Shown here: piece by piece, positions 52,180 through 57,463 of the stretch
How the letters are laid out: each line of letters starts with the position of its first letter
How positions within the stretch are numbered: the first letter of the stretch is position 1
From: Flavobacterium profundi
GTDB taxonomy: Bacteria; Bacteroidota; Bacteroidia; Flavobacteriales; Flavobacteriaceae
Direction of reading: 5' to 3'
Length of the DNA stretch: 64,000 nt
NCBI RefSeq assembly: GCF_006491645.1
Contig: NZ_VDCZ01000007.1
Location: forward strand, 1 to 64,000
The notes under the pieces: model-generated
Databases searched by the model: none
The model's input: only the letters and a program-made list of their open reading frames with translations
Told to the model about the DNA's origin: nothing
Made by a program: the position numbers and the translations under genes

Positions 52180-53025
52180 TTATACCTCTTTTTTAAAAAT
52201 ATAAGACAATACTGTTTCAATTTTAGCACTACTGATAATTTTACCTTTTGATGCTGTATTTTTGGCAAATATAGGCAAAGGCAAATTCATATTTTTTGCT
52301 TTTTTGTGATAATATTCTTCTCGAGTGGGATGCTGAGGTGCCACAGCGTTAAAAATTATTTTGTCAGTCTTATTGTCACTTCGAGCGGAGTCGAGAAGTT
52401 GTTCCAAAATTTCCAGAATTATACCAATACAATCTTCTTGATGTATAAAATTAATCGGTCCATCAGGGTTTTCTACATTTTCTTTGCCAGCCAAATATTT
52501 AATGGGATGCCTATCTTCTCCAATTAACCCACCAAAACGTAGAACTATAGTTTGAAAATAGGGATTATCCAATAGTAATTGTTCTACTTCAACTAATTGC
52601 TTTCCGCTTTCAGTATCAGGATTTGTAGGTGTTTCTTCCGTCACTTCGAGCGGAGTCGAGAAGATTTCTATATCTCCATAAACAGAAGTCGAACTAACAA
52701 AAAGTACCTTTTTAATTTCAGATTTTTCTATTTGGGTAACCAACGTTTTTATTTTAGCTACAAATGAAATAGAAGTGTCTTTTCTCAAACTAGGCGGAAT
52801 GTCTATAACTAAAACTTCCGAATCCTTTAAAAAACCAGTTATGTCTCCTTCAATGGTATTTTCGTAAAGAGTAATTAAAAAAGGTTGGATGCCCTTCTCC
52901 TGTAATAATTCTAGTTTATGCGCTGAAGTAGTAGAGCCTTTCACAGAAAAGCCATTTTTTAATAAATCATTGGCCAAAGGCAAACCCAACCAACCACAGC
53001 CTAATAGGGAAATTTGTTTAGTCAT
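52180..53025 (-). CDS. NAD(P)-binding epimerase-like protein with two repeat insertions
   Basis: 281 residues of the extended SDR type. The Rossmann start is SLLGCGWLGLPLANDLL, and SSTSVYGD near 110-117 carries the usual Ser and Tyr. It may act on a sugar nucleotide or similar; the substrate is unknown. The oddity is two copies of an identical 24-bp dispersed repeat inside the gene, both kept in frame. One encodes LLDSARSD near residue 213, the other FSTPLEVT near 124, in different reading frames. Both fall at likely surface loops. The gene overlaps the upstream membrane protein gene by 8 bases and is followed 4 bases later by the EamA gene. Confidence 0.85.
   Translation of the reverse strand: MTKQISLLGCGWLGLPLANDLLKNGFSVKGSTTSAHKLELLQEKGIQPFLITLYENTIEGDITGFLKDSEVLVIDIPPSLRKDTSISFVAKIKTLVTQIEKSEIKKVLFVSSTSVYGDIEIFSTPLEVTEETPTNPDTESGKQLVEVEQLLLDNPYFQTIVLRFGGLIGEDRHPIKYLAGKENVENPDGPINFIHQEDCIGIILEILEQLLDSARSDNKTDKIIFNAVAPQHPTREEYYHKKAKNMNLPLPIFAKNTASKGKIISSAKIETVLSYIFKKEV
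52375..52398. repeat. 24-bp dispersed repeat, copy 1 (in coding sequence)
   Basis: Begins GTCACTTCGAGCGGAGTCGA and ends GAAG. Identical to the copy at 52640-52663. Read in the gene's frame on the minus strand it gives LLDSARSD. Related arms form a hairpin at 55874-55935. Confidence 0.85.
52640..52663. repeat. 24-bp dispersed repeat, copy 2 (in coding sequence)
   Basis: Identical over 24 bases to the copy at 52375, in the same orientation 265 bases away. Because 265 is not a multiple of 3 it is translated in another frame, giving FSTPLEVT. Confidence 0.85.
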
Positions 53026-55318: not shown

Positions 55319-55798
55319 TTATTTCTTAAAATTAAAAACGACTTCTTTTTTAGAATCTTCAAAATAGGCGTAAAGGTTGATTTCATTTTCAGATACTTTT
55401 TCAAAAGTAAAATTATCAAAATACATTCTGTTTTTTTCTTTTTTGATAAACCTAAAATCTTCGGATTTGTCTTTGTCTTCCCAACCTTTTAAATTAGCAT
55501 CAAAGTGTTTGATTTGGTACAAAAGTGTTTTGTCTTTTTCCACGATATGACCTACTTCATAAAAAACAACTTTACCTTCTACCACTAATTTAAAATCAAA
55601 TAGCATGGAACCGCCTAAAGGTTGGCTCCAGTTTTCTTGAAAAAAACCACCAAAAGCTTCTCCAGTCCAATTTCCAGCAAGCCATTCTATATCTTTTAAG
55701 GTTGCTTTTTCCGAACCTTTTTCATCATTGTAATGGAGTGTATTTTGTGCAAAACTAAAGGATGAAATTATTAGGAATAGAAAGATTTTCTTTTTCAT
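55319..55798 (-). CDS. DUF6265-like exported protein
   Basis: About 159 residues with a signal peptide (MKKKIFLFLIISSFSFAQ). The body has WLAGNWTGEAFGGFFQENWS near 40-58 and a run of antiparallel strands, typical of small lipocalin-like DUF6265 proteins. The ligand is unknown. I start at 55798 for the signal peptide; the frame extends up to 55855, but that adds 19 residues without a signal. It abuts the DinB gene and heads a leftward group. The hairpin of dispersed repeats at 55874-55935 lies upstream. Confidence 0.75.
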   Translation of the reverse strand: MKKKIFLFLIISSFSFAQNTLHYNDEKGSEKATLKDIEWLAGNWTGEAFGGFFQENWSQPLGGSMLFDFKLVVEGKVVFYEVGHIVEKDKTLLYQIKHFDANLKGWEDKDKSEDFRFIKKEKNRMYFDNFTFEKVSENEINLYAYFEDSKKEVVFNFKK

Positions 55799-55873
55799 AG
55801 ACTTAGATGATATTTTAATGGTTTGGAGAAAACTTTTTACTAATATTGAATTCATGTTTGTATTTATTTAGTT

Positions 55874-55935
55874 GTCAGTTCGAGCGGAGTCGAGAACAAT
55901 TTTAATTGAGTCATCTCGACTCCGCTCGATGTGAC
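55874..55935. repeat. inverted pair of the dispersed repeat, large hairpin
   Basis: 22-bp arms at 55874-55895 and 55914-55935 with two mismatches and an 18-nt loop. The arms carry the same CGAGCGGAGTCGAGA core as the repeats inside the SDR gene. The hairpin starts 1 base after the stop of the leftward GNAT-nitrilase gene and could end or protect its transcript, although there is no T run. Confidence 0.85.
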
Positions 55936-55936
55936 A

Positions 55937-57463
55937 TTATCTCAATTTCTTTAAACTATATAAATCCAGTCTTCGGTCTTTCATGGTGTTTACACTTCCG
56001 TGTTCATGCAATTCTTTTAACAAGTCAAGATCCACATCTACTATTAACGTCATTTCAGTATTTGGAGTAGCTTCTGCTTTAATTCCATTACTTGGAAAAG
56101 CAAAATCGGAAGGTGTAAAAACAGCTGCTTGCGCATATTGAATATCCATGTTATTTACTTTGGGCAAATTGCCAACACAACCAGCAACGGCTACATAACA
56201 TTCATTTTCAATGGCACGCGCTTGAGCACAGTTTTTAACGCGAGTATATCCATTTTGAGTATCGGTTAAAAAAGGAACAAATAAAATATTCATACCTTCA
56301 TCAGCCATTAGACGTGATAATTCTGGGAATTCCACATCATAACAAATAATAATTCCGATTTTTCCACAGTCGGTATCAAAAGTTTGAATTACATTTCCAC
56401 CAGTCATTCCCCAGTGAAATACTTCATTTGGTGTAATATGAATTTTGCGATACATTTCATAGGTTCCGTCTCTTCTACAGAGAAAACCTACATTGTACAC
56501 ATGGCCTCCTTCTTGAAAAGGCATACTGCCACTAACAATATTGATATTGTAGGAAATGGCATATTCTTGAAATTTTTTACGAATGGCATCCGTATATTTC
56601 GCTAATTCTTTGATGGCTTCAGCTTCCGATAAGTGATTGTAATCGGCCATTAAAGGCGCTGTAAATAATTCTGGAAATAGAGCAAAATCACTACCATAAC
56701 CTGAAACAGCATCAATGAAAAATTCAGCTTGTTCAAATAAGGCTTCTAAATTGTTTAAAGGACGCATTTGCCATTGGATTAAACCCAAACGAACAATACT
56801 CTTGTCTACGTTAATTAATTTTTTAGCATCTTCGTAATAAATATTATTCCATTCCAATAAAACAGCATATTCTTGAGATTCCTTATCCCCTTCTAAATAA
56901 TTTTTTAAAACTCGCACTTCATGAAAATCATTACTTAACTGAAAAGACAATACAGGGTCATAAATCTCTTTCTTTTTTACCTTTTCCAAATATTTTTTAG
57001 GCGTAATTTCTTTAGCATATTTGCCATAATTTGGTATTCTTCCAGCAAAAACAATAGAACGTAAATTCAATTGTTCGCATAATTCTTTTCGAGCATCGTA
57101 CAAACGCCTTCCTAATCGCAACCCTCTGTAATTGGGATTGATAAATACATCTATTCCATATAAAACATCCCCATCTTCATCGTGCGTTTTAAACGTATAA
57201 TTTCCAGTAATATCTTTATAGGTTTTAGTGTTAAAAGCAAAGTCTTCCGTAACTAAAATCGACAAAGCAGAACCTACAACTACATCATCTGCAACAATAA
57301 CAAGTTGTCCTTCAGGAAAAATTTTCAAAAGTTTTTTTATATGATTTTCATTCCAATACGAGTCTACCATTTCAGGATAAGCTTCAATCATGGATTTTTT
57401 AAGCTCTTTATAATCTTTTATCTGTAAATTTCGCAGTTCAACTTTACTAATGGTATTTGGCAT
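55937..57463 (-). CDS. GNAT-acetyltransferase/carbon-nitrogen hydrolase fusion
   Basis: 508 residues. The N-terminal GNAT domain (about 1-200) shows the acetyl-CoA loop NYRGLRLGRRLYDARKELC. The nitrilase-superfamily domain (about 220-505) carries the full catalytic triad: Glu in ALFPELFTAP, Lys in MYRKIHITPNE and Cys in IGIIICYDVEFPELSR. Such fusions hydrolyse an amide or nitrile of unknown identity and perhaps acetylate it. The start at 57463 follows a perfect -7 element by 17 bases. The stop is followed directly by the dispersed-repeat hairpin. Confidence 0.93.
   Translation of the reverse strand: MPNTISKVELRNLQIKDYKELKKSMIEAYPEMVDSYWNENHIKKLLKIFPEGQLVIVADDVVVGSALSILVTEDFAFNTKTYKDITGNYTFKTHDEDGDVLYGIDVFINPNYRGLRLGRRLYDARKELCEQLNLRSIVFAGRIPNYGKYAKEITPKKYLEKVKKKEIYDPVLSFQLSNDFHEVRVLKNYLEGDKESQEYAVLLEWNNIYYEDAKKLINVDKSIVRLGLIQWQMRPLNNLEALFEQAEFFIDAVSGYGSDFALFPELFTAPLMADYNHLSEAEAIKELAKYTDAIRKKFQEYAISYNINIVSGSMPFQEGGHVYNVGFLCRRDGTYEMYRKIHITPNEVFHWGMTGGNVIQTFDTDCGKIGIIICYDVEFPELSRLMADEGMNILFVPFLTDTQNGYTRVKNCAQARAIENECYVAVAGCVGNLPKVNNMDIQYAQAAVFTPSDFAFPSNGIKAEATPNTEMTLIVDVDLDLLKELHEHGSVNTMKDRRLDLYSLKKLR

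Follow-up and report, generated by a model that had tools for sequence, protein, structure and literature searches.

The 24-mer GTCACTTCGAGCGGAGTCGAGAAG, present in two exact copies within one SDR-type gene of Flavobacterium profundi, belongs to a dispersed family of palindromic repeats that insert into genes, housekeeping genes among them, and are specifically associated with genes for small GIY-YIG proteins. It is a TGTC-tagged REP-like mobile element, the two copies in the SDR gene being two insertions, and the family probably spreads through a stand-alone GIY-YIG nuclease, a candidate that would act on the repeat and cause its movement. The window referred to below is the whole stretch of DNA analysed (64,000 nucleotides), and G000 denotes the genome to which it belongs.

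Two copies of the element are read in different frames of one gene

The two exact copies lie within an open minus-strand ORF. Since they are 265 bases apart, they are read in two frames and translate as LLDSARSD and FSTPLEVT. These coordinates and translations, and an ORF that stays open at both copies, were confirmed as given in an earlier note on this DNA. The note had also described an inverted intergenic pair of the same core, which is present as near-copies between ORFs 55319-55855 and 55937-57463. The features of the window are as follows:

52180..53025, minus strand: host gene, 281-aa SDR/NAD-dependent epimerase-like protein with two repeat-encoded segments (from the ORF, domain matches and predicted fold)
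52375..52398, plus strand: REP-like element copy 1 (protein site 2), exact 24-mer; minus-strand reading LLDSARSD, residues about 210-217
52640..52663, plus strand: REP-like element copy 2 (protein site 1), exact 24-mer; minus-strand reading FSTPLEV, in the other frame, residues about 121-128
55874..55897, plus strand: intergenic element, left member of the inverted pair; arm type GTTC/GAAC, tag outward, 2 mismatches to the 24-mer
55912..55935, minus strand: intergenic element, right member of the inverted pair; arm type CATC/GATG, tag outward, 2 mismatches to the 24-mer

One hundred dinucleotide-shuffled versions of the window produced no match to the 24-mer. Within the window, Rfam gave no match and the other repeat families, CTGAACTTGTTTCAG and CTGAGCTTGTCGAAG, were not found.

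The host protein gave weak matches to Pfam PF01370 and NCBIfam galE over residues 94-172, and its predicted fold resembles PDB epimerases, 3ius being the best. In the model (mean pLDDT 83), site 1 belongs to a loop and site 2 sits where a helix ends and a strand follows, both segments being of lower confidence; the earlier note had expected loops. That note spoke of a tolerated surface peptide; the host resembles a soluble enzyme, and the description therefore holds for the surface of the protein.

Anatomy of the element

The element consists of an unpaired tag, (T)GTCA, followed by a 4-bp arm, the core GAGCGNAGTCGA and the complementary 4-bp arm. Our survey of fetched Flavobacterium loci yielded 182 copy contexts (179 at first count), in which the tag was TGTCA in 155 and CGTCA in 3. 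Arms were complementary in 145/182 copies, comprising 11 complementary arm types, versus a shuffled mean of 24 and maximum of 38, a comparison that gives no probability because related copies were scored as separate. CGTC-tagged REPs end in a brief unpaired stretch behind the second arm, usually CCA; here the flanking sequence varies, with a C often next to the arm. As a single strand the 24-mer folded weakly (-1.5 kcal/mol, z 0.7), which does not support a stable hairpin, and recognition of the element as a duplex is just as likely.

Orthologues differ at both insertion sites

At site 1, the element was found in the window genome and, with one mismatch, in Flavobacterium sp. 9AF (L032), and a variant allele was found in L036. 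Three orthologues without it (L031, L034 and L035) have VFPIEE-type residues at this position (VFPIEEIT), more distant orthologues have a shorter loop, and Flavobacterium sp. J27 has a diverged segment of equal length. The window genome, L031 and L032 share the element at site 2, where L035 and L036 have different repeat words (GLRQAQSD and ILKQVQHE types) and distant orthologues a short SWNE loop. Orthologues that lack the element at one or both sites, or have other repeats there, bear out the proposal of the earlier note that a dispersed repeat was inserted into the gene and tolerated in frame. The note had asked whether insert-free orthologues carry the same residues; those found have other residues.

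An origin of the in-gene copies as ancestral coding sequence that resembles the intergenic repeat by chance is extremely improbable. The same-length segment of J27 would agree with it, but exact 24-mers occur in two frames, near-copies lie elsewhere, and other species have different repeat families at the same loops or no insert. As far as it was tested by orthologue comparison, this explanation was ruled out.

Furthermore, identity between the window and L031 is 100% over the 3' part of the SDR gene and 82-89% around site 1, and identity with L033 is 100% at the 5' end. This mosaic along the gene indicates that interspecies recombination has moved the segments.

The repeat is dispersed in the genome and uses all open frames

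The earlier note had described similar repeats as widely scattered in flavobacterial genomes, and a genome-wide search agreed that the repeat is dispersed: it returned 35 exact cores, TCGAGCGNAGTCGAG, versus 0 for the reversed-pattern control. A looser pattern with one mismatch allowed gave 43 genome matches versus 2 in the control. Eight internal copies lie in six long ORFs of this genome, namely the SDR gene (2), LeuS (2, in two frames), UvrA, a D-isomer 2-hydroxyacid dehydrogenase, a radical SAM protein and PurL.

Across the genus survey, 25 copies are internal to genes; they use the five open frames 9, 4, 2, 3 and 7 times and the TGA frame 0 times. Two frames within one gene, which the earlier note had singled out as unusual, are not exceptional, since LeuS of the same genome is a second case and copies within genes occur in each of the five open frames. 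Repeats occupy one and the same loop in several species in PurL, the radical SAM gene, a HisA-like gene (in two frames), LeuS and others (the HisA and VirE-like gene identities were assigned by eye). At site 2, LeuS exceeds 19/19 aligned relatives by 8 residues. Net insert lengths differ: LeuS has +12 bp at site 1 and +24 bp at site 2, and the SDR gene has about +27 and +9 to +15 bp. No target-site duplication was identified at the inserts. At one gene site a compensated arm change occurred in place (CTTC/GAAG versus GTTC/GAAC), and LeuS is the sole site of a CGTC-type repeat found in G012 and G017.

Three further arrangements were observed. About 15 exact copies of the A type, the family of the 24-mer, cluster around a contig break, some at a period of 45-46 bp (G000:C12:148392-151174 and G000:C16:1-1020; L112, L105). 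The loop of LeuS site 1 is filled in other Flavobacterium (L131-L144) with other repeat-like words, AGAAGTCAGAAGTC, CAAGAGCCAAGAGT and TTTCAAGTTTCAAG. A VirE/primase-like gene (by eye; L163, L164, L199) has two repeat families at one loop in three genomes.

Repeat families accompany clades of GIY-YIG genes in Flavobacterium

A small GIY-YIG gene outside the window (G000:C19:25279-25688) lies between inverted A-type elements, and its product of about 114 aa matched PDB 1ywl and 1zg2 in sequence. This flanking pair has the same outward-tag geometry as the intergenic pair of the window, which has no ORF between its members. In the genus, GAGC-core repeats were found within the fetched locus at 14/30 GIY-YIG loci, these being the top-scoring matches in a sampling that favoured the highest scores, versus 0/30 Y1_Tnp loci. 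A RAYT/Y1 transposase was rejected as the mover: no PF01797 match was found in G000, and the relation of Y1_Tnp to copy number was weak (rho 0.25, p 0.057). G029, with its 49 copies, likewise yielded no Y1 transposase.

On a tree of 72 GIY-YIG proteins, 11 flank classes, called by patterns written after inspecting the loci, required 10 changes, which is the minimum; shuffled labels required a mean of 31, with 0/200 shuffles as low as 10. Separate genomic positions within clades numbered 3 in 5 genomes for A and 7 in 8 for T, some positions within one clade being orthologous. The five genomes with an A-type nuclease had more A copies (p=7.5e-5, nuclease-locus copies removed). No A-type nuclease match was obtained in 26/31 sampled genomes with exact A cores, in which the enzyme may have been lost, been transferred or not be needed. 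Behind one conserved gene, G000 has the whole unit, G060 a bare inverted A pair and G051 an inverted pair of another repeat; neither unit nor repeat was found there in the other genomes shown (unreadable L364 excluded).

The repeats could be the target and home of the nuclease and not its cargo, the enzyme recognising pre-existing repeats into which its gene homes and the repeats spreading otherwise. GIY-YIG enzymes are known as homing nucleases that recognise uninterrupted target sites (PMC1564403), and such homing would suit the many genomes with repeats but without a cognate nuclease, the bare inverted pairs at the same site in other species, and a related GIY-YIG clade whose genes follow tRNA 3' ends and have a second copy of the tRNA tail downstream. 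However, copies are more numerous where the cognate nuclease is present, even with nuclease-locus copies excluded, and the repeat family changes with the nuclease clade at different genomic positions. We regard homing into pre-existing repeats as unlikely.

Template switching during replication, ectopic gene conversion and recombination between species might also spread the repeats with no enzyme of their own, and the GIY-YIG link would then be a by-product of shared intergenic accumulation. Template switching in quasi-palindromes could yield compensating arm changes like the one seen in place, and the mosaic SDR gene, the lack of a detected Y1 transposase in G000 and G029, and the solitary CGTC-type copies found in LeuS of G012 and G017 agree with such a process. 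It leaves unexplained, however, the clade-specific pairing, the two-sided placement and the absence of repeats from the 30 Y1_Tnp loci, and appears quite improbable.

According to the reading that we prefer, with a stand-alone GIY-YIG nuclease as the agent, the element inserts at many genomic places and, within genes, survives in loops because five of its six frames lack a stop. The SDR-gene copies are two insertions, later reshuffled among related species by homologous recombination. Copies would spread through the nuclease, encoded between inverted elements of the same family, and single and paired repeats without a nuclease gene would be non-autonomous derivatives.

Other GIY-YIG arrangements were also seen in the genus. 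In the separate clade found at tRNA 3' ends, where the tail of the tRNA recurs after the GIY-YIG gene, some genes are in tandem (L253, L262, L290, L238, L260, L279, L280). In L246 (G056:C14), the reading frame of the GIY-YIG domain runs through repeat-encoded stretches into a long ORF, part of which looks methyltransferase-like by eye.

Tagged palindromes flank GIY-YIG genes beyond Flavobacterium

Among 13 non-Flavobacterium GIY-YIG loci taken from a plasmid collection, tagged palindromes lay on both sides of the gene in 7 (Azospirillum, Shinella, N. gonorrhoeae, A. caviae, Novosphingobium, Sphingobium and Rhizobium CIAT894) and only downstream in Photobacterium; none was found at 5/13 fetched loci. 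Controls from six of the seven two-sided records (all but Sphingobium) gave 0/1937 overlapping windows each, and the GIY-YIG locus was two-sided in 6/6. In Azospirillum, Shinella, Rhizobium, sphingomonads, Aeromonas and Neisseria, the repeats flanking the GIY-YIG genes are published CGTC-type repeats. This consistent flanking in several bacterial groups makes the GIY-YIG enzyme a testable candidate for the spreader. Whether stand-alone GIY-YIG proteins are dedicated mobility enzymes of CGTC/TGTC REPs across several phyla and classes, parallel to RAYT and GTAG repeats and with in-gene insertions as their products, stands in our view at about even chances.

The 2013 survey of CGTC repeats discussed below left their mover open, and the clade-by-clade pairing names a small, testable enzyme. 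Furthermore, the Flavobacterium set provides many replicates of one short DNA word in five frames of conserved enzymes, often in the same loop across species, and so a useful resource for studying how proteins come to tolerate additional peptide segments.

Comparison with known systems

REPs within genes are already known; the link between GIY-YIG genes and repeat families is an association for which no precedent was found in the searchable literature, and the mechanism proposed above is inferred from it. CGTC-tagged REPs are short palindromes with an unpaired tag, for which TGTC is listed beside CGTC (Di Nocera, De Gregorio and Rocco 2013, PMC3733652). According to that survey, they occur in Bacteroidetes, no dedicated transposase was found, and intragenic REPs, including those in uvrA and tRNA synthetase genes, are reported for REPs in general. 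Our element has in common with them the one-end unpaired tag, the inverted dimers, arms varying between copies, intragenic copies and no known transposase. It belongs to the CGTC-tagged REP superfamily, whose tag may be CGTC, TGTC or CCTC: it has a TGTC or, rarely, CGTC tag at one end of a palindrome, and its many dispersed copies include inverted dimers and units inside genes. It differs in its 4-bp arms, 3'-side unpaired bases and another loop, whereas CGTC families 1 to 4 have 8-9 bp stems, with complementary A and T at the first two positions, and a loop of 4-5; given the 4-bp arms around its core, it was not filed in these families. The searched text of PMC3733652 mentions no association with GIY-YIG genes such as that seen here.

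Tagged palindromes, inverted pairs and an enzyme gene flanked by its own family are also features of REP/RAYT systems and REPINs (PMC2817692, PMC3116915). Unlike in REP/RAYT, the tag is GTCA and not GTAG and the associated enzyme is a GIY-YIG protein and not a Y1 tyrosine transposase; the results above for PF01797 and the Y1_Tnp loci likewise set the element apart from GTAG REP/RAYT. The sequence match of the G000 protein is to small stand-alone GIY-YIG proteins of the UPF0213-like kind.

The earlier note had likened the element to the palindromic elements of Rickettsia (RPE), likewise palindromic repeats inserted in frame within genes; they belong to another phylum, and the comparison is one of behaviour alone. 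In this respect the likeness stands, as the element works like an RPE, being a palindromic repeat that enters genes and keeps their frame open. Its closest kind, however, is the CGTC/TGTC-tagged REP group, which, according to PMC3733652, itself includes the Rickettsia elements RPE-4 and RPE-6 (Ogata et al. 2002).
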